From Agelaius tricolor (taxonomy: Eukaryota > Chordata > Aves > Passeriformes > Icteridae): 64,000 nt of DNA. Location: contig JALJCS010000001.1 in the NCBI GenBank assembly GCA_023055355.1, positions 94,287,381 to 94,351,380 of the forward strand. Reading direction: 5' to 3'. The position numbers and the translations under genes are program-made. The notes under the pieces are model-generated. The model saw only the letters and a program-made list of their open reading frames with translations. It was not told the DNA's origin and ran no database searches. Of this stretch, positions 1,280-64,000 are shown piece by piece (position 1 is the stretch's first letter; every line of letters begins with the position of its first letter).

Positions 1280-9738
<8,459 letters not shown>

Positions 9739-19358: not shown

Positions 19359-20488
19359 AAAACTATTTTTCTTAGGTAGAATTTGTATTTCTAGTGTAGG
19401 CTAGTATTCATGTGAGTTTTCAATTGGGAATTCCTGCCATGTTGCACAGGTTTAAATCCATCAACAAAATTTCATCCTAGGCCTGGGCCCTTAGCTCCCA
19501 CATGTTCACAAGGTATGGCTTGGTAACATTTTTGGTTTTTTTCAGAGTCTTGCCCTTTGGAGAGCTGTGCTCAGTGAGAAGTGATGGCTAGAGCATTTCC
19601 TTTCTCTTGGTAAGGCTCAACGTTTGCCACTGATGAATTTCTCTTCTTGTCTATAATGTTCCCATTGCTCTGATCTCTCTGGAACAGTTGCAGTTTGAGT
19701 CTGCCTCCTCTGTTTTGGTGCCATCAGCTCCAAACTGATTTGGAGCTCCCACTCTGATTTGGGTGCCATCAGTGAATCTGGTTGCAGTTGAATTTACAGC
19801 ACAGCAATCCGTGACACAGATGGGGCTCCTGGCCGGGTCTGACCCCCCTGCAGCAGCCCAGCAGAGGCAGCCCCGGAGTTTCTGTTGCTGACACGTGTGC
19901 TACGGAAACCACCGAGGACGCTCCTGCTTCAGCTGTGCCGGCATCCAGCCGTGACAATGCTGGGCCAGGGGCCGCACCAGGAGCTCTCTGAAGTACCAAC
20001 AGCGTAGAGAGAGGCACGGCATGAGGATGGGTTACAGGGTTACAACATATTTTGCATAAACATCACATGAGAGAACTACCACCGGACTTCTGTTCATACC
20101 GGTTCAAGCCACTTGTTCATCCACATTCACAGAAAAAAATACCTAGGTAAGGAAGTTGAAAATGTTACTTTCTTTAAGTTAGTCCGAATAAATAACTTAG
20201 AACTTTTCATTTCTTTATTTTAATCTCTTTAAAACTGTTGGGGTGTAAAGTCCACGGGGGTGTTTGTTGCGTTTTGAGATTAAGAAATCCTTCTGCCCTG
20301 AAAGCTTTTTGTGCGAGGGAAAGCCGAGAGCAGGGGGCAACCTCCCAACCCGGCTGAGAGCCCGGCCCCGGTTTGGGCTCGGCGCTCGCCTCTCCGGGCT
20401 CCTTTAGGGCGTTGTTGCTCGGCCCCACCTGCTTGGGGCTCGCGGCCGGGCCGGGCCGAGCCGTGCCGGGTGAGGGGCCGGGAGCGGC

Positions 20489-20982
20489 GCTCACCGGGAG
20501 CCGGGACAGGAGCAGGGGGGGCTCACCTCGGGAGCCGGGACAGGAGCAGGGGAACTCACCGGGAGCCGGGACAGGAGCAGGGGGGCTCACCAGGAGCCGG
20601 GGGGCTCACCAGGAGCCGGGACAGGAGCATGAGGGCTCACCGGGAGCCGGGACAGGAGCATAAGGGCTCACCGGGAGCCGGGACAGGAGCAGGGGGGGCT
20701 CACCGGGAGCCGGGACAGGAGCAGGGGGGCTCACCGGGAGTCGGGGCAGGAGCAGGGGGGGCTCACCAGGAGCCGGGACAGGAGCAGGGGGGCTCACCCC
20801 GGGAGCCGGGACAGGAGCATGAGGGCTCACCGGGAGCCGGGACAGGAGCAGGGGGGGCTCACCGGGAGCCGGGACAGGAGCAGGGGGGGGCTCACCGGGA
20901 GCCGGGACAGGAGCAGGGGGGCTCACCGGGAGCCGGGACAGGAGCAGGGGGGCTCACCGGGAGCCGGGACAGGAGCAGGGGG
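20489..20982. repeat. GC-rich minisatellite, about 31-bp unit, about 15 copies
   Basis: Tandem units of 30-34 bp read GCTCACCGGGAGCCGGGACA followed by GGAGCAGGGGG. There are about 15 full copies and one short one, differing mainly in the length of the G run and in a few single-base variants (such as CAT or CATAA in place of CAG). Lengths are not multiples of three, so no constant reading frame passes through. The array lies in a CpG island about 110-600 bp upstream of the predicted first coding exon. On the minus strand each unit carries CCG|GTGAGC, a strong splice-donor consensus. Confidence 0.95.
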
Positions 20983-21090
20983 GCTGCGGCTCCCTCCGGG
21001 CGCTGCCGTCTCGGGGCTGCTGCGGCTCGGTCCCCGCTCGGGGGCTGCAGGCACAGCGCGCTTCTTGCGGGCGTTCGGGTGCTTCCAAAT

Positions 21091-21230
21091 ATGCACAAAA
21101 ATGTTTTGATTCGGGCTAACTCGCTGTGTGCCACCGCATCCTTTCTGTCTGGGGAATGCGGCTGCTCAAAATGCCGATTTCAGAGACAGGAGGAAGATGC
21201 GCGGCGGCAGAAGTTGTACTGCCCTACTGT
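21091..21230 (+). CDS. YccV-domain gene, candidate exon 1
   Basis: An ATG at 21091 opens MHKNVLIRANSLCATASF and the frame runs to a consensus GTAAGT donor at 21231. Its phase fits exon 2. The Cys-rich sequence matches nothing I know, so it may be 5'UTR. Confidence 0.45.
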
Positions 21231-24200
21231 GTAAGTGCAGGGGGCAGTGCGGCGGCGACCCCCGGCTCCTGTCCAGTCCCCCAGGGTGCTCATGGCTATT
21301 TGGCTGAACTGTGACTCTTCCTCCCCCCACAACACGCAAGGCTAAACAAATACTCTACAGCTACTGATAACGTCTAAAAGGTGATTAGGAAATGTTTTTC
21401 TCTTTACTGGTGGCTCCAAAGCAGATGATGCAGAAGTTAAAAATACAGTTTGTAGTAAGGCTTCATCACACACTAAGACGTTTCCATATTCCTTACAATA
21501 TTCTTTGAACCTCCTCTTTGTGATCTTGACTGCTTTTGTTGGGCAGTTTTCATGAATCTACCTTCCCATGTGCATATGTGCTGTGTATATTACAGTAACC
21601 CAAATTATTTTGCATATTATATAAATTAGGACAGCAGGATCTAGAAGCAACTCGGACACAACTGTAGTGAATTGCTTTTGCTTGTGGGCTGAGTATTCCA
21701 CTCCAGGAGATAGCAGGAGCTGCACCAGCTGCTCCTGGAGAACAGAGAGCGGGTGAATGCTGCAGTAAACCGGGTACTCTGACAACACCTGCATGAAAGA
21801 CACAAGTCTCAAATTCCAGCATGTCTTAGTTCTGATTTGAAAAAGCCTCACAGATGTAAAGACAGTCCTCAAGTGAAGGTGAATATCTTGATGGTCTAGG
21901 GAAGGAGGGAAGAGCCATGAATATGCACTGGTATGTTTCAGGTGCTTATGAGAATGAGAGGTGATGTCAAATCCTTTTCTAATCCAGTGGTGGAACTGTG
22001 GCACATTATCAACCTGGTACAGTGCTCTAAGTGCCTTCAGCCTGAAAGAAAAACCCCTTAGTTCTGTCAGATGTGCAATTATCACTGAATGCAAACAGAT
22101 TATTTTTGAGGCCATCAATCTGGTATGCCAGACATGTTTAATGCACTCCATCAGATGACAAAGCAGCACAAATAATTTGGTTCACGGACAGCAGCTTTTT
22201 ACTGCAAATTGGACAACCATACAAATTCCCAGTTCCTCTTTTCTTTTTTCCCTCCCTCTGTTTACAGACAAAAGAGATGCCTGTATAAATCTTAAAAGCA
22301 TGTTTTTGCTGTCTTGTGTACTTTAGTCTTCTATTAGCTTCTGTAAGTACCATGAAATTTAATGGAGTTAAAGTGGCCTAAATTAAGTGTGCTCCAGCTG
22401 TAGCCAAAATGCCTGAGTACAGATTGCACATAATGTTGTGAACCAGCAAAGCAACCTGAAGGAAACTTTTAAGTTCAACACATCTAGCAAAGCTCACAGC
22501 TACTTATTTTATCTCTTTTTAAAATTTTTCTCTTCCTCTTTTCAGAGTAGGGAGCAGTGAAGTATCTTTGACAAAACTTCCTGTTGGAATGCCTCACATC
22601 AATGCAGCTGCAGCTCTGCAGATTTCCATGCTGCTCTTTGCTCTTCCTGCACAGTATTTCATATCTCAGTGGTATGGAACGGACTCTGCCGAGCGCACCC
22701 AAATAACAGAAAGGTTGTAAGACTCCCCTTCCCTACTGCAGTTATTTGTAAGAGAATTCTCTTCCTCATCCCCAATGACACTTTGTCCTGGAAAGCTGAA
22801 GTGTGGGTGGATTGGCTATTCCTATACAAAACCAACATTTAAATCACACCTCAGGCATTTTTGTGGCTTAATATGACTGTATTTAGTTTCAAAATTCAAA
22901 TAGCAATTGTTGATTTCTTCACATAAAAATCTTATTAATCTGCATGGGTGCCTTAACCTCATTCTTTTTTGGGACATTCCAATATATGTTACTCAGGGTT
23001 ATGTCCCTTTCAAAAGATGAAAATTAAGTGATTAAGTAACATTAGTTCTGATTTTCCATCACCTTTTGACATTTACCGTTATAAAATATTTTTTTGCACA
23101 GTATGACTCAGTACAGACTCTTAACCAACAAAATTCACTCACAGTAAATTACTTAAGGCAGGGACAATGATAAGAGCTAAGTAAGGAGTGCCATTTTATC
23201 TATGAATTAAGAAGCAGTGTATTGACAGAATCCCACACACATATCTCCAAAGAAAAAGTGGAGATTATTACATCAGATCCAAATTTTTGACAGTGGTGTC
23301 CATTGGCAAGCACAGGCATCTTGAAATGAACCATGCAAAGAGAGACTCAGTTGTACATGTGGCCTGTGCAGTGTGCTGGCTGTGTGGTTTATCTGTGGAA
23401 TTCCAGTGCATGAAGCAGGAAGAGCAAAAGATTGGTCTGATGAAAAGAGAACTAAGCTTGGCTTATGCATAAAGATCCAGAGTGAAATAATTTTCAGGCC
23501 TCATGGAATGAGTCAACCACTTATTATTTAGATTTATGCAAAAACCTGTAGGCTTTTTTAATAGTATTTTGATTATGTACACCATTTAAAAAATATCTCA
23601 TGGTCTCTATTCTCGAATAACAGTCGAAGCTGCAGAATCTGAATGTAATTTAACAATTCCTATGTTCCAAGTACAGGAAGAAAGCAATCTTGTAATGAAA
23701 AATGGTATTTTCCAAAATTTACATATGGTTTACTGGTACAAGTGATGACTGAAAGAATATTAATTTTCAGTGTTGATATTAATCTTGAGGAGAAATTGTT
23801 CATGGTCACTGACCTTTTCTTTCTCTTTGCTACAGAAGTGAAACTTCAAAGCTTAAATATTAAAAATCTATATAAGAATACTAGAGAAGGTTTTAAAAAC
23901 AATCTGATGACCATTTTTACTCCTAAAGGATAATTGCCTCTTGGAGCATCTCAACAAGATCTTACTTGAGTCTGGATGCATGGGCAGATGGTTTAAAGCT
24001 GTGGCTCTCAAAGACAAGGTAGGGTGTTACCGTCTGCACCTAGGAGATTTCAGCCATGGTCTGCTCTGAGCAGGAAATGTGCTGTGGGGGAAGTAAGTGA
24101 CAAAGAGGAAATATCTCTCATTTGCTTCTTCAGACTGATCTGGAACTTTCTGAACAAACATCAAAACTGAACTCCATGTGAAACTAAATGTAACTCATGC

Positions 24201-40400: not shown

Positions 40401-43276
40401 ATGATTTCTAAAGAGGCCTTAGATAAGCTCGCAACAACTAGAACCATATGGAGACTGTGAAGAGACATTAATTTTACAGTTGTCTAGAATGGTATTAGCT
40501 GCAAGTGAAGTTAGCAAACGCAGTTAAGAACAAATTGCCAGCAGTGAGAGTTGTTAGTGGAAAAGCTGCAAGGCAAATAAAAGCTCCAGCAGCAGAGTGA
40601 TTTAAAACTGGATGAAACAAAGCACTAAAAATTATACCGTGGGGAACTACTCTGAAAAAAAATAACTTCATGTTGTTTTTCTCAGAGTTCCCTAGAGCTA
40701 ACACTTTGCTAACACTGAGAAACCCACAACTCAAGCAGCATTTCACAGTCTCTCAACTAAGTGGAAAGAACATTTCCATTCTCCAACACACAGCATCTTC
40801 AAAAGAGAAAAAGATTACTGTGAAATTATTGTAACTATAATAAGACACCGAATACTCTCACATTGTAAAAACAGCCCACTCTCTACCCTGCTTGTCTGCT
40901 CACATTACTTTTCTGAACCTGACTGTTACAAAACCAAATAAAGTCATTTGTTTGTCCAAGTCATACTTCAGTTTGCAATCCTTTTTTCTATCCTGGAGTG
41001 GTGCACACAGCCCCTCTAAAGCACACTCACCTCTTTAACACCCTGCCTACTCTTGTTGTGTGCCAGTCACTCATGCTGGATGCTCCCTGCTGTCCCAATT
41101 CAATCAGTATCAAGTCAAAACTGGAAGTCAGTTGTTCAGATTCACGGTAGGGTAAATATCTGCAACTATCTTTTCCAATATAGCCATGCTCTGAAGAACT
41201 ATTTAATAACAGTCAGGATAAAAATGTCCCATAATCTGATAGCTCACCATGGTGGTGGGTACAAAGATTAACATTTTCTCTACTAATAGGAATGAATGCA
41301 TGCTGAATTGCTTTGTCTTCTCCCAGTCCTCTTAAAATCCACCACTTTAAACTCCTGTTAACTCACTTAAAACACACTGAAGGCATTTAACCTGTAATCC
41401 CTTACAAAAATACACCAGTTTTGGCTGAACGATTCATCCTGATGTCAATGGAACCCATGACAAATGCTGCCTGTGACAAACATGCACCCAGCCATGATCA
41501 ATACTTAGCCTAAAGCAGCCTCCATGTCTCTTTGTCACCTAGTCCCAGAGCTGCAATATGAGCTTTTTCAGGGGCTAAGTGGTCTTCTTTACTGCCTTCT
41601 TTATTCCTGAACAATTTGTAAAGATGCTACAGCGACAGCATAACAGTTCAAAATAAGCCCCATGGAATCCTATTTTGTTTGGGAAATGAAAAGCTGGTGC
41701 CAGTACTTATCTTCAAATGCATGCAGCATCTGAAATGTGGACATGCAATTTCACTGTGGCACATCACTGTTTAGGCTGAGTAACTGACTCTCCTACTTTG
41801 CATTTACTAACTCTGACTTGCACTGTACCATCATGCAGTATCAGGAAACTCTTCTGCAATTCCTTTTTACTCCATTGAATAATCTGGTGTTCATAGCAAA
41901 CCTGATCATTTCCCTTTCCCCCCAGCTTAGCTGTGAATACACTCAAAAGGCACAAACCTCCTAGGGAACTTCAATAAGAAGTAACTTTTGAAAACAACTG
42001 CATATTCCATAAAAGATAAGGGGTTTTTTTTTTCCTGTTTTTAAGAGCCCTATGTGTGGAACACTGTCCAAAACTCTTCTGTGAAATCCAAAAACATCAT
42101 CAGCACAATTGTTAGGACAACATCACTCTTATGGAGCATTTACTGTTTGGACAGAGCTTTAAAGGTAAGTCTATGCTTTTTTCATTGTTGCAAAATTGCT
42201 TTCAGAGGCCAAAATACTCATTGTGGTAAAAAACTTTCTGGGTCCACAAGGGGCTTCTGTCACTTCAGCTATCTTGATCATATCCCAAGTTTTTCAAAAC
42301 CTCTCTACTTAAGTAGAACAAGAAAGAGAGAGAGGAAAGAGCTCTGTATGTACTTGCTGCTAAGCTCTGGTCATCACAGTTACTCTGACACACACAGGTA
42401 CAGTTTATGCAGCTGTGTACAACTTTATCAGTTTCATTCGCCTGCATGGACGAATGCTGTATTACACCAAGAAATCACAGAATTAGGTTGGAAAAGGCCT
42501 CTGGTGTCATAGCGTGCACCATTAGACTGAACACCACCATGTCAACTAGACCATGGCACTGAGACCCACGTCCAGCCTTTCCTAAAATGCCTCCAGGGAC
42601 GGCGATTCCACCACCGTGGGACTCGAAGCAAGACGGCTTTCACACGCTTAACAAGCAACCTGTTGGAAAGCCCGGGTAGGGACATTCCACCTTTTCCGCT
42701 GGGGCTGGCATGGCTGCAGCCCTCCAAAGACAGGCAGGCTTTCCCAGCGGTTCCCGAGGCTCCGAGAGCTCCAAACCCGTCACTCCCCTGCTCCCCGCCG
42801 GCACCAAGGCCCTCCGCGGCCGCTTCTCCTCAGGGCCGCTCCGGCGGGACGGCACCGCACCCCGCCGGCTGCGAGCGGGACCGGGAACGGGACCGGGAAC
42901 GGGACCGGGAGCCGCCCCGGGAACCGGGAACTGCCCCGCCTGCTGCCCTCCCCGCCTTCCCCCTGGGGACGCCCCGGCGCCTCAGCGGGTCCCGGGCGGC
43001 GGAGCTCACCGGGATGCCGTGCAGGCGGGCGGTGTGCGCGATGTACTGCAGCCGGCGGGACACGCTGCTCCGCGCCGCCACGGCCGCCTCCTTGCGGCTG
43101 CCGAGCCGCAGCGACACCCGCGCCCGGTCCGGGCGGGCGCTCAGCTCCGCGCTGCCGTTCACATGCACCTCCCGCCCGGGCAGTGCCGCAGCCTCCACGC
43201 GTCCCTCCGGGGCCGGGGACGGGGCCAGGTCGAGCTCGGCGAAGACACGAGAGGGGGGCGGCGCGGGCGGCGCCAT
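31171..43276 (-). CDS. IRAK1BP1: IRAK1BP1 (SIMPL-domain protein), complete, four exons
   Basis: IRAK1BP1 (SIMPL) binds IRAK1 and takes part in TNF/IL-1 signalling to NF-kB p65; it is built around a SIMPL (DUF541) domain. Minus-strand exons are 43276-43010, 36478-36413, 32574-32444 and 31441-31171, totalling 735 bp (244 residues; the human protein is about 260). The start MAPPAPPPSRVFAELDL lies in a CpG island with G at -3 and +4. Diagnostic stretches are EVHVNGSAELSARPDRARV, MTVTEDFSRVENTYQMEAE, SVTISPPHFYHTPEA, RRKAQEVCQLFGQALGKPLL and IKEEETKEWGG; the end is VFAVFEIKGKENRRSKLP. Splice phases fit throughout. An in-frame GTG upstream at 43327 is not needed as a start. The gene is tail-to-tail with the YccV-domain gene and linked to PHIP as in mammals. 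Confidence 0.95.
32444..32574 (-). CDS. IRAK1BP1: IRAK1BP1 exon 3
   Basis: The exon encodes VCIIFNDFGKMQNVCNLLIE then KLGTSVTISPPHFYHTPEAI and DTL, ending in phase 2 at GTAAGT. The central part of the SIMPL domain lies here. Confidence 0.93.
32575..36412. other. IRAK1BP1 intron 2
   Basis: Intron sequence with no gene or recognised repeat. Several short open frames (for example 33508-33798) have no homology I can see. Intron 3 (31442-32443) is also empty. Confidence 0.55.
36413..36478 (-). CDS. IRAK1BP1: IRAK1BP1 exon 2
   Basis: This 66-bp exon encodes EENMTVTEDFSRVENTYQME then AE. The acceptor is GTTTTAG and the donor GTATGT. It is phase 0 at both ends. Confidence 0.93.
36479..42470. other. 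IRAK1BP1 intron 1 (main part)
   Basis: AT-rich intron sequence holding the (CAG)7 tract and short low-complexity stretches. No further exon or transposon is recognised. Confidence 0.6.
36881..36901. repeat. (CAG)7 trinucleotide repeat in IRAK1BP1 intron 1
   Basis: Seven perfect CAG units on the plus strand (CTG on the gene's sense strand) lie 403 bp upstream of exon 2 in sense orientation. It is non-coding. Confidence 0.95.
42471..42662 (-). mobile_element. CR1 LINE 3' fragment in IRAK1BP1 intron 1
   Basis: The fragment begins AATCACAGAATTAGGTTGGA, the reverse complement of a CR1 3' end, and continues into CCTTTCCTAAAATGCCTCCA. The element lies on the minus strand and ends where the CpG island flank starts. 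Confidence 0.85.
42877..42912. repeat. 12-bp tandem repeat, three copies
   Basis: GGGACCGGGAAC occurs three times in tandem (the last with one change), in intron 1 of IRAK1BP1 about 100 bp after the exon 1 donor. Confidence 0.9.
43010..43276 (-). CDS. IRAK1BP1: IRAK1BP1 exon 1
   Basis: Very GC-rich exon of 89 codons from ATG at 43276 to the donor CCG|GTGAGC. It encodes a Pro/Ala-rich start and the first strand of the SIMPL domain, then SRKEAAVAARSSVSRRLQYI. Long open frames on the opposite strand are composition effects. Confidence 0.93.
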
Positions 43277-43426
43277 GGCCGTGGCTATGGCGGCCCTCAC
43301 GGCACCATGGCAACCCTGGGGCGCCACGTCACAGCGCCCGCCCGCTCCCGACCGCCGCCGCGCGGGCCCGGAGCCCCCGCTCCCGCCGGGACCGGCGTCC
43401 TCACGGCGGCGTTAAGGGAGGAAAAG

Positions 43427-50400: not shown

Positions 50401-51018
50401 TGCTTCCCCCAGTTTCCCTGCTCACTCTACTCAATCCAACTGATGTGTTTTTCATCTTCATCTCTACCTTTTACAGATTTTACCCACCTTTCTGGAGTTC
50501 CCTCAAGGGCTCAATTCACTGTGTTAGCACCCTCTTCTTTATGTCTTTCCTCAGAAAATGTTTCCCTGGAAACTCTAACCCTGTTCCCTCAGAAAAGTTA
50601 ATCCATGCCATTTTTCTCTGTATTTACTCTTCCTCTTTTTGTATTAATAAGATCTTTATTTAACTAGGTTTAGATCTGTGGAGAAAAAATAAAAGCTCCA
50701 ATATTTTGAATGACCTTGAGTATGTGTGACTGTAACATCCCTATTCTACAAGAGGGACTCTATTTTGGACCTGAAATGATGAATTAGAACTTCAAAAAGA
50801 CACACCATAGAGAGGTATATAAATACTAAGGAAAACAGATAATTGCAAGATCAGCCATATGGTTCTGTATATACAAATCTGGCATGTTATGAGAATTTTT
50901 AAAGTTAGATTTTTCACTCTTTCTCCTTTCAAGTAAGTAGAATGCTGTAACCTATAATTTCATATTTCACCACACTGTAGTGAGTCCCAAAACAGAGGGT
51001 CATAATAGGGCCCCTCTA
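44441..51018. other. Gene-poor region upstream of IRAK1BP1
   Basis: AT-rich sequence with no supported gene. It contains an imperfect 35-bp-period duplication at 46811-46875. Open frames reach at most 136 codons (46218-46628, minus) without recognisable families. Confidence 0.5.
46811..46875. repeat. Two-copy direct repeat, period 35 bp
   Basis: TCTAAATTACTGAATTCTTA and its near-copy at 46846 are each followed by ACAACAAACA-like sequence. Confidence 0.85.
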
Positions 51019-51597
51019 GAATCATAGAATGGCCTGGGTTTGAAGGGATCTTAGAGACTGTGTAGTCCAACCCCCTGCCATGGGTAGGGACACCTTTCAC
51101 TAGGCCAGCTTGCTCAGGGCCCCATCCAACCTGGCCTTGAGCACTTCCAGAGATGGAATATTCTCAACTTCTCTGTTCCAGTGCCTCACCATCCTCACAG
51201 TAAAAAATATCTTTGTAATATCCAATCCAAACCTCAGCTTAAAGGCATTATCGCTTGTCCTTATCTTTACAGACCCTTGTAAAAAGTTCCTCTTCAGCTT
51301 TCCAATAGGCCCCCTTTTTAGATACTGGAATGCTGCTGTAAGGTCTTCCTGGAGCCTTGTCTTTTCCAGGCTGAGCAATGCCAATTTCTCAGCCTGTTTT
51401 CATGGGAGATGTGTTCTGTCCCTCTGATTATCCCTATGGTCCTTGTCTGGACTTTCTCCAACAGGTCAGTGTCCTTCCTATGCTCTATGCTAGGGATAGC
51501 AGAGCTGGATGTGTAATCCAGAATGGAAAATGTCACATCAGTTTGTCCTTTTTTTGGGTTATAGTTGTCTCTCAGGAAACTGAGCACAGAAGAAGGT
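51019..51597 (-). mobile_element. CR1 LINE, 3' part with decayed ORF2 end
   Basis: The plus strand begins ATCATAGAATGGCCTGGGTT, the reverse complement of a CR1 3' terminus. On the minus strand two overlapping frames (51587-51318 and 51384-51100) carry the reverse-transcriptase C-terminal signature: DLLEKVQTRTIGIIRG, then LRLGLDITKIFFTVR-like and RHWNREVENIPSLEVLKARL. A frameshift separates them, so the copy is dead and 5'-truncated. CR1 is the dominant bird LINE; it primes on its own 3' end and leaves no poly(A) tail. Confidence 0.93.
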
Positions 51598-60641: not shown

Positions 60642-61104
60642 TGTTCTGGTTTAACCCCAGGCATCAACCACACAAGTGCTCTCTTACTCCCCCATGCAGT
60701 CTTGGTGTGGTGGGGAGGAGAATGAAAAAAACAGGTAAAACCCATGGGTTGAGATAAGAACAGTTTAAGACTTCAAATACAGTAAAATATAATAATACTC
60801 CTAATAATAAACATGATAATAATAGCAATAATAAGAACAAAATTTTATTGAAAAGGAGAAAGAGATATAAATAAAACCCAAGAGAAATAAGTTATGCCCA
60901 ACACAATTGCTCTCCACCCACTGACTGCTGTCCACTCTATTCTCAAGACTTCCCCCTCCTGGCCAATTCTCCCCAGTTTAGATACTGGGCATGACATTTT
61001 ATGGTATGGAATGTCCCTGTGGACAGTTCAGGTCAGCTGTCCTGGCCTTGCTGCCTCCTGGCTTCTTGTGCCCCTCCTCACTGACAGAGCATGGGAAAAG
61101 AAAC

Positions 61105-61210
61105 AATCACAGAACAGTTTGGGGTGAAAGGGACCTTAAGGATCATCTTGTTCCAGGGGCACCTTCCACTAGATCAGGTTGCTCAAAGCCTCATTCAATC
61201 TGGCCTTGAT
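61105..61210 (-). mobile_element. CR1 LINE 3' end, fused to a poly(A) tail
   Basis: The sequence from AATCACAGAACAGTTTGGGG through AGATCAGGTTGCTCAAAGCC to CTGGCCTTGA is reverse-complemented CR1 3' sequence. It stops mid-element and passes within five bases into T10 at 61215-61224. It marks one edge of the insertion in the LTR. Confidence 0.88.
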
Positions 61211-61214
61211 AAGA

Positions 61215-62196
61215 TTTTTTTTTTAAACCTGAGAGTTTATTACTGCAGAAGACTTAAAGATGAAACAAAAACGAACTGAGAAAAACTACCACAAAAAATG
61301 TGCAGTTGAGCAATCAGAGAAAATAGAGTATTTCAAAATAAACTTAGAAAGTCCTAAACATTTAAAAGTTCTACTTGTGGTGGCTTAAGAGGAATTTTTT
61401 CTCATTACAATATTATTTGTTTCAAATTGTTTCAATTCTTCGGCTGCTCTTTGGTATAAATAACTTTTTTCATGTATTCTGCTTTGTAAGTGCAGAAGCT
61501 GCTGATGTGATGTTATGTCCACTGGCAGTCTATCCAAATAAAATTCTGCTGGACTGTGAGGCAGAAGTTGCTCCTGCTGCATTAAATGTTCCAAAGATTG
61601 TAAGCACAGTGGTGCTTGAAGAGTTCACAGCAGAAAAATTCCTAGGCAAGGACGTAGCCTCAAAAGCAGGAGGATTGCAAGCAGCAGAAATGCTCTCAAA
61701 ACCATCAGAATTTCCAGATGATGATGCACTGGCAAGACTGGAAATCATTGTAAAGAAGAAACTGGTAGCACTGTTACTACTGCTGTCCATGGGAAAGCTT
61801 GGCAGCCCAAAGCTTGCTGTTTGCAGTCCTCCAGATCCAAAGGAAGGCAAGTGTTGAGTGATTGTGTTCTTTACAATCAGATGGCACAGCTGCTTTTGTC
61901 AATGCATTTAAAGCTTTCCACTGAGGCAGCTGATTTTTCCATTGTCCGTTCTGCTGGACAGAATTTATATAGAGTTCTGAATGTTTGCTCTGCAGTCATA
62001 ATGCTCCAGATGGAACTATTCTGGCAAGAAATCTGAGAAGCCTGAGACATTCAGCTTTTCTTTCATTGTAAGATGAAACTATCCATTGTCCTGAAGATTC
62101 CCAAATTTCCATGTCTTTCATTACATAGTCAAAAAGTCTCTTCATCCTTATAGCCATCAGTAATATTTTGACTGTTTGTAAATGCAGAAAATGTAT
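61215..62196 (-). pseudogene. NUP42: NUP42 (NUPL2) processed pseudogene
   Basis: NUP42 is a nuclear-pore FG protein that binds GLE1 in mRNA export. This minus-strand copy has no introns and is truncated at its 5' end, starting about residue 120 of some 420 in the human protein. From 62196 downwards the frames give NTFSAFTNSQNITDGYKDEE, then MKDMEIWESSGQW, LYINSVQQNGQW, a Phe-Gly and Ser-rich stretch (SGGLQTASFGLPSFP), RAAEELKQFE and finally PLKPPQVELLNV with its stop near 61343. Several stops (for example after PSGAL) and frame changes break it. A 3'UTR of about 120 bp, AATAAA at 61241-61236 and a 10-base tail at 61224-61215 follow. I matched it by recalled human sequence. The plus-strand open frame here (61375-61857) is a shadow. 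Confidence 0.88.
61236..61241 (-). terminator. Copied poly(A) signal of the NUP42 retrocopy
   Basis: AATAAA on the minus strand lies 11 bases before the poly(A) tract, the normal spacing for mRNA cleavage, showing that the source was a polyadenylated transcript. Confidence 0.85.
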
Positions 62197-62347
62197 TCTG
62201 CAAAAAGTCCTTGACCTAGGGTAAGAACTACTTAGCAACAACCAAAACATCTGTGTGTTATCAATATTATTCTCATACTAAATCCCATACCACAGCACTG
62301 AATAAGCTACCAAGAAAATGAACCCTATCAAAGCCAAAAGCAGGACA

Positions 62348-64000
62348 CTCTCAGAGGAGTGTTACTTTACCCAAGTTCCCTGGGATTTATGTCACAGTGT
62401 CATCAATCCTGACATAAAAATAGTAACTGAAGAGCAATGATTCAATTTGGGATAAGAGTCAACTCTTTTAATGTAAATTGTTTTGGAGTTAATTGTTGAG
62501 TTAGAAAGTGATTTAGAGCTCTTAATTGTTGAATAGAGAGACAAATGACTCAGCCCATCCTGAAATGGGAGATGCTGATGAATCACTGAGCAGAAGGATA
62601 CCTACATCTATACCTAAAAATGCTCCTTTGAGTATGGAGTAAACAGGGAAGACTTGGTTACCAAAATTGTTGAGCTTGAGGACAGATGAAGTAATGGGAG
62701 ACAAATTGCATCCTAGGTTTGCTATAAATCAGAGTTTGGGTTCCCTGTGAATCATACCAGGAGTGCCTTAATGGGATTGATTTTAAAGAGCAGATGGGAT
62801 GTCAAAGGAGGAGTCCAGTTCTGTGAGCAAAACTGTCCAGTCTTCCTCCTGCATATGTGAAGATTAAATGATTGCCCACGTATGGAGGAGTTGCACACCA
62901 CTATAGCCTAAACAACATGGGAAGCAATTCTGGTGTATACAAAAAAGTTGCAACTGAAAGCCCAGGCAGCTTTCAGAGGTCTGGAGAGCCTTTTGAAATG
63001 TTAGCCCTTCATGTAAATTCAGTATATATATTTGAGGTGAAGAAAGCCATTATGGTTATGTTTTATTCATATTTATCTTCTGCAGAAAAGTAGCAGTTTT
63101 AGGAAATGAGACATGCTGTGACCCCAGGGGAAAATCCTCCTGTAGATATGTCTTGTACAGGCAAGGACAGAGCAAGTCATCTGGTGGACACACTGCATAT
63201 ATGCCTTGCTTGGTGGAAAATTGCAAGTTTAATTGGGTTTTCCTCCTGCTGTTTTTTAATAGTACTGAGCCTGTCACTATGCAGGGAACATTGTATATGA
63301 AAAATGTCAAAAAAAAAATTAAGGTAAGTGGCATCCTAATGTACTGTTTAGTGCTTAGGGCATAAATGGCAAATCTCAAAAGACTATGACAACAATAGAA
63401 ATAATGTGTAAAAAAACAAAGCAAAAATTACCATACCATATAGCTTAGTTGTATGCAAACCAGGCAGCATTAAATGTCAGTATCCTAATATTTTTTAAGA
63501 AAGAAAACATAGAGCTAACAAACAATGTTAAACTTTCTGGTCCCAGTGGTGACAGAAATCCTTACAGTTCCCATGTGGCACCAGCAAAAATGTAGATTTC
63601 TGTATATTCTACATGTAGTGTGTCAGTGCCAACCTCAGGCGTTCTCCAGGAGACACAACACAGTGAAGTGAGCATTGGTCTGGGTCCACCAGCAGATTTG
63701 GGTGCTGGAAAACCATGTGTCTCTGTGTATAGTCCAGCTTTAAGGTTCCTACTGCCATACAGGAATCGACAGCCTGTCCTTTCTGCCCCTTCAAGGACTC
63801 ATGTCTCATAAGGAATTCACAGTCAGCGCTTGGAGGGGAAAGTTGTTCTCACATCACTTTGAGGGGCTATGTGGAATAAGCTTCCATCTCACATCCTGTC
63901 ACGATCCACTAGTACAAGCGGGGGTCATGATGGTTCCTTTACTGATCTCAGAGGCAAAAACAACACAGAAAGAGATTTCAGTATTAATCAAAACAAAATG
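62348..64000. other. Intergenic sequence to the window end
   Basis: No gene is supported. The last 100-400 bp (about 63.6-64.0 kb) differ in composition and may be the edge of another LTR that continues outside the window, but I cannot confirm this. Confidence 0.4.

Follow-up and report, generated by a model that had tools for sequence, protein, structure and literature searches.

A NUP42 retrocopy joined to a CR1 3' end within one LTR of Agelaius tricolor: a probable chimeric insertion by the CR1 machinery

The window analysed here is a stretch of 64,000 nucleotides from Agelaius tricolor, and related copies were searched for in a genome of 1,157,526,801 bases (G000 in the coordinates below). 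The minus strand of the window carries, in order, LTR sequence, a copy of NUP42, an AATAAA signal, a run of ten A, the bases TCTTA, the 3' end of an element which we take to be CR1, and again LTR sequence. This is the order that had been proposed by a sequence-only reading of the same DNA, and it was recovered here. The NUP42 part had been placed from 62196 onwards, whereas its homology begins at 62209; the extent of about 105 bp given for the CR1 part held, 61209-61105 being among the CR1 matches listed. The features are as follows.

62204..62369, minus strand: 5' part of the LTR, flanking the insertion on the left (alignment to LTR copies of the same genome, 29/29 loci)
62201..62209, minus strand: 5' junction zone of similarity between LTR and NUP42 mRNA (GACTTTTTG in the window; parent exon and LTR copies compared)
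61225..62209, minus strand: processed copy of NUP42 mRNA, 5'-truncated (parent alignment, protein search, reading frames)
61236..61241, minus strand: AATAAA, polyadenylation signal in the NUP42 copy (conserved in the 3' UTR of the parent)
61215..61224, minus strand: A10, remnant of the poly(A) tail (no A-run there in the parent)
61210..61214, minus strand: TCTTA, five bases between poly(A) and CR1, perhaps non-templated, or LTR-derived under the main rival explanation
61105..61209, minus strand: CR1 3' end, truncated on its 5' side, with part of the palindromic region deleted and its end close to the octamer tail (CR1 copies aligned)
60642..61103, minus strand: 3' part of the same LTR, right flank (LTR copies aligned)

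With regard to the NUP42 part, reading through its broken frames gave 122 protein matches at E<=0.001, mostly from birds, and all of the 120 listed except P0001 are named NUP42, NUPL2 or nucleoporin-like 2. The protein search thus clearly points to NUP42 as the source of the copy. Short pieces of the broken frame gave no match in PDB and Pfam. The parent gene and the window are on different contigs: the gene is found on G000:C6 (about 30.317-30.324 Mb; 30317236-30324024), and a partial tandem copy of its 3' half is found just upstream, at 30.311-30.314 Mb (G000:C6:30311124-30313697). The parent was spliced in silico at GT/AG borders read from its sequence, and 1122 bases were taken. The copy (window 62209-61222) covers positions 6-1118 of the spliced parent with 76.8% identity over 932 aligned bases (K2P 0.28), and five parent introns are cleanly missing, with exon junctions at 62132, 62042, 61969, 61885 and 61799. 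The second to seventh exon found and the 3' UTR are present, with one internal deletion of about 140 bases, and the coding frame is broken by frameshifts and stops, the homology being spread over three frames. The copy terminates after AATAAA at the poly(A) site of the parent, which has no A-run there; this cleavage site was placed from AATAAA rather than from a transcript. Given that the introns are missing, that the copy ends at the parent cleavage site and that the A-run is present only in the copy, it derives from a mature, polyadenylated, 5'-truncated NUP42 mRNA. An ordinary processed pseudogene is spliced, 5'-truncated and ends in a poly(A) tail. The precise absence of introns, the poly(A) at the inferred cleavage site and the broken frame place the copy among processed pseudogenes, with which it shares splicing, 5' truncation and poly(A); it differs from an ordinary one in the CR1 3' end past the poly(A) tail and in the want of a clear target-site duplication.

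The element at 61105-61209 is homologous to the CR1 copies of the genome through their conserved 3' end towards the octamer tail. For most CR1 elements 5' truncation is described, along with conservation of the 3' hairpin and the octamer (PMC4316615). The best 40 of 2057 candidates scored in the genome search gave 41 rows, of which one is the locus itself, three are exons of the parent NUP42 and 37 are CR1. Among these 37, the match covers exactly 61209-61105 in 13 and starts at 61209 in 21, and the starts span query positions 1046-1067. The combination of NUP42 and CR1 occurs a single time among the same best 40 of 2057 candidates. The CR1 part differs from the majority of 27 CR1 copies at 10 of 105 bases, corresponding to a K2P of 0.104 that is biased low because the 27 copies were picked for their likeness to it. 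Upstream of TCAAGG, a CR1 probe scored at least 18 in 18 of the 27 copies, 11-14 in six and 5-10 in three (10, 7 and 5), whereas the window scored 3 with the same probe (a raw score, with no null distribution). This low score indicates that the CR1 part begins beyond the poly(A) tail, from which five bases separate it. The direct link that had been claimed is confirmed: A10, or T10 on the plus strand, lies five bases from the CR1 homology, and the intervening TCTTA is accounted for by neither CR1 nor poly(A). No A-run is found on the far side of the CR1 part. Differing small deletions in the palindromic CCCTGCCCATGGCAGGGG region were seen by eye in window 61105-61209 and in the best-matching CR1 tails L006, L008, L010, L023, L027 and L029, which is partly a selection effect, as the query itself carries such a deletion. 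A second CR1 3' end lies at window 51000-51300 on the minus strand, with longer CR1 sequence upstream of TCAAGG, and terminates in ATTCTATGATTCTA.

The outer sequence is a repeated LTR, which gave 42 rows in the genome search. Both flanks were aligned to all 29 other LTR loci that were extracted, of which 12 lie in one orientation and 17 in the opposite one. In every one of the 29 the flanks adjoin each other, their matches being -24 to +25 bases apart. The claim of LTR on both outer sides is therefore borne out, and the insertion breaks one LTR at one place, the break containing both parts. The left flank reaches furthest, to 62369, with copy L045, and its last bases overlap the NUP42 part by microhomology. 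The 5' side of NUP42 abuts LTR and not CR1. A CR1 copy continuing on the far side of the retrocopy had been named as a sign that NUP42 entered an older CR1; that far side is LTR.

At the 5' junction the parent exon reads GACTTTTCA and the LTR copies L037, L053 and L055 read GACTTTTC(A/G); in a longer reading, the parent exon has GCAGACTTTTCACAG and L055 has GTCAAGGACTTTTCA. For 12 of the 29 LTR copies the break was compared in 18 registers each, and in the best register 3 to 10 bases are shared. When these sequences are joined at random, 0.7% of single joins reach 5 shared bases and 0.016% reach 8, a comparison which leans towards the observed value, since the best register was taken there and single joins in the random set. 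This microhomology fits the closure of a first strand onto its target, yet it would fit any target-primed insertion and so makes no choice between one event and two. The T-rich target permits a duplication of 0 to about 5 bases (by eye), and none is clear. CR1 is described as lacking target-site duplications and a known target preference (PMC2169234), and target-site duplications at CR1 are mentioned in other papers (PMC5729268, PMC8665684).

The age of the insertion can be approached through proteins that include its 5' junction. Near its start, P0001 reads LLLSSSYPRSRTFCR, which corresponds to the LTR and junction of the window in another frame. For the jay Cyanocitta cristata there is P0015, a NUP42-like protein of low quality, with the stretch VKDFLQNRF, in which VK is LTR-coded in the window. 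As both stretches span LTR and NUP42, the LTR-NUP42 junction is common to the window and the sources of these proteins. Such proteins reach the LTR-NUP42 side alone, and no genome other than this one is known to show the poly(A)-CR1 junction. A maximum-likelihood tree was built from 34 proteins, comprising the four copies together with 8 of the 9 suboscine, 9 of the 13 oscine and 13 of the 73 non-passerine rows. In this tree P0001, P0015 and P0088 (Parus major) grouped with the window in one clade (100/100), outside the passerine parents (100/99), and a constraint placing the copies with the oscines was rejected (p-AU 0.00016, with the bootstrap not fully settled). Sites were counted over 73 non-passerine, 9 suboscine and 13 oscine rows; 22 non-bird rows were excluded, and six further rows were dropped as isoforms or mispredictions, two of them (P0086, P0091) without sequence inspection. 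At 19 sites derived in the passerine parents, the retrocopies are ancestral at 12, derived at 3, one of which hangs on a single non-passerine letter, and have another state at 4. Both oscine-only sites show the ancestral state in the retrocopies.

Given its position outside crown passerines, the retrocopy is old. On this sequence comparison, its most likely origin is the passerine stem, before the split of oscines and suboscines, and it may also date from earlier. New Zealand wren, parrot and suboscine copies were not seen among the protein matches listed. The branch of the NUP42 copy in the window measures 0.079, 0.132 or 0.155, depending on the conserved sites used. These figures appear compatible with the 0.104 of the CR1 part, with standard errors of about 0.03 and a conversion factor for protein changes that is our own. 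A spike of CR1 expansion is reported between the split of the New Zealand wren and the divergence of oscines (PMC8665684). Public contigs were searched for DNA of other birds: neither an LTR nor a CR1 pattern gave a match in viral contigs, nor did a CR1 pattern in genome contigs.

Junctions of the same kind were sought throughout the genome with a pattern of A10 some 41-101 bases before the conserved CR1 tail motif, with T10 in place of A10 as the control. As these patterns require exact anchors, they detect some but not all of the CR1 copies. The A10 pattern gave 8 rows at 7 distinct places, the own locus included, and the T10 control 16 rows at 9 distinct places; no genome-wide excess of poly(A) before short CR1 tails was thus found with these patterns. 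CR1 starts no more than five bases from the run, as judged by eye, at 2 of the 7 A places (the own locus and L073) and at 1 of the 9 T places; at G000:C1:30488441, T10 lies directly before CR1 (by eye). A narrower pattern gave three places including the own locus, and the other two, L064 and L066, lack an AATAAA shortly before the A-run (by eye). L068, L069, L070, L072 and L074 were rejected as chimeras, having no AATAAA in their last 45 bases; the A24 run of L072 is seemingly an expansion inside CR1 (by eye). L073/L075 (G000:C36:5902448-5902544) shows AATAAA, A15, two bases and a CR1 start within two bases of the CR1 position of the window. It was dropped as a second chimera: a search with its 1491 upstream bases gave no further match, although the lack of a match does not prove rarity, and the place is therefore not recognisable as an mRNA copy. 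A junction of AATAAA, A-run and CR1 can therefore arise without a detectable chimera.

Taken together, these features are best explained by a single insertion by the CR1 machinery with template switching to NUP42 mRNA, most likely on the passerine stem, to which we assign a probability of about 0.6. That both parts lie in one LTR break which is contiguous in 29 of 29 other copies, that just five bases separate poly(A) and CR1 with no A-run past CR1, and that the left flank is LTR rather than CR1 all favour one event, and compatible ages and the published biology of CR1 make it the simplest reading. We infer from this that NUP42 and CR1 arrived jointly. Counted against it are the junction of L073 without a detectable parent, the lack of an A10 excess over T10, and the leftover TCTTA. 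Template switching, as proposed in the sequence-only reading, agrees with the sequence features in so far as these fit one CR1-driven chimeric insertion; taking the junction alone as its proof was too strong, since the same genome has an AATAAA-A15-CR1 junction without a detectable parent mRNA and A10 is no commoner than T10.

The CR1 reverse transcriptase, for which recognition of the CR1 3' hairpin and octamer has been suggested (PMC4316615, PMC5729268), would have nicked an LTR and started first-strand synthesis at the 3' end of CR1 RNA. After copying about 105 bases it would have left the CR1 template, added about five bases and moved on to a spliced NUP42 mRNA at its poly(A) tail, with synthesis halting inside the second exon. 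The end of the cDNA may then have paired with the LTR target via a short homology (GACTTTT...), which would have sealed the 5' side with no clear loss of target sequence.

Two successive events form an explanation that we consider unlikely but which deserves serious weight. NUP42 mRNA would have entered the LTR by a poly(A)-using enzyme, and a 5'-truncated CR1 would later have inserted at the 3' edge of the poly(A), TCTTA being leftover LTR bases. TCTTA agrees at 3 of 5 positions with the LTR bases TTTCA at the break (by eye), and CR1 ends beside homopolymers with no detectable mRNA do exist, next to A15 in L073 and next to T10 (by eye) at G000:C1:30488441. The chance that a CR1 starts on the same strand no more than 6 bases from a given point is about 5e-4, or about 4% over 78 retrocopies, by our own rough arithmetic with chicken figures, for which more than 200,000 CR1 copies (PMC2169234) and a count of 78 retrocopies (PMC3136929) are reported. 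Nevertheless, such a sequence of events calls for a base-precise coincidence and for an enzyme working from poly(A), in a lineage with few copies of this kind. In addition, the far side of the CR1 lacks an A-run, and the ages of the two parts are compatible.

One insertion could also have started from a chimeric RNA formed before reverse transcription, the 3' end of NUP42 mRNA having been ligated to a fragment of CR1 RNA. Its final structure would be identical to that left by template switching, so the two are not separable at this locus. The five extra junction bases are not expected from simple ligation, and we know of no CR1 fragment with this 5' end. We regard this route as improbable, and the join was presumably made during reverse transcription, even though RNA ligation has been offered as an alternative for U6/L1 chimeras (PMC13174262). 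An older CR1, with NUP42 arriving exactly at its 5' edge, would give the same order of parts; it is very improbable, as the NUP42 5' end abuts LTR, so that the second hit would have met the LTR/CR1 boundary to the base, and a poly(A)-using enzyme is again required. Capture by an LTR retrotransposon, in which NUP42 mRNA was copied by template switching inside the element and arrived with it, would account for LTR sequence on both sides but is disfavoured to the point of being scarcely credible, as the copy is not an interior between two LTRs but interrupts a single one whose halves are contiguous in 29 of 29 copies, and comes with both poly(A) and a CR1 end.

If it is a single CR1-driven insertion, the locus belongs with LINE 3' chimeric retrogenes, as a foreign RNA copy is joined in sense to a LINE 3' end. 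The 3' chimeras of LINE-1 with U6 and other RNAs, including mRNAs, likewise have the foreign RNA copy in sense directly 5' of the LINE 3' part, and are explained by template switching or RNA ligation (PMC13174262). They are described there as often flanked by target-site duplications, whereas none is clear here. A further difference is that the LINE here is CR1, whose own 3' end is not poly(A), and that the poly(A) stands within the insertion, where the two parts meet. In Magnaporthe grisea, WEIRD-MGL and related chimeric retrogenes also fuse a cellular transcript to a LINE 3' part, which is ascribed to template switching in LINE reverse transcription (PMC2104539). In that fungus 33 bipartite elements are reported, some with recurrent switch sites (PMC2104539); here there is one copy and no genome-wide excess. 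A parallel with the same enzyme and bird order is PittSINE, for which a template switch from TguSINE1 to tRNA by the CR1 reverse transcriptase has been proposed in passerines, giving a 5' foreign RNA with a CR1-derived tail (PMC5729268). Its partner is a tRNA and it became a SINE family, in contrast to the spliced poly(A) mRNA and single copy found here; the locus thus has neither the multi-copy family nor the tRNA-derived head of a CR1-mobilised SINE.

No CR1-mRNA chimera was found in the openly licensed literature. LINE 3' chimeras are already known from L1 and a fungal LINE; the pairing of CR1 with an mRNA would be new if the insertion was one event, and the locus would be an ordinary nested set of common repeats if there were two. 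In chicken, few retrocopies are reported and CR1 is held responsible (PMC3136929), as it reportedly is by Suh (2015), to judge from the title. A CR1 tail past the poly(A), if it stems from one event, would show how this rule can bend. The locus is a good single case and does not prove a general route. It is doubtful that jumps of the CR1 reverse transcriptase from its own RNA to the poly(A) tails of ordinary mRNAs, instead of direct poly(A) priming, made part of the few bird retrogenes; if this were so, hidden CR1 3' tails past the poly(A) would be expected on them. Poly(A) followed by a CR1 3' end is a simple signature for which the 3' ends of bird retrocopies in existing catalogues can be screened, and the junction serves as an old insertion marker for perching birds.

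Elsewhere in the window, exon-like open frames are found at 1897-9735 on the plus strand, which we take to belong to a PHIP-like bromodomain/WD-repeat gene, and at 42833-43411 on the minus strand, presumably exon 1 of an IRAK1BP1-like gene. At 20302-21231, imperfect repeats code for GSPGAGTGAGGAH-like units in several frames; this region is probably a tandem repeat.
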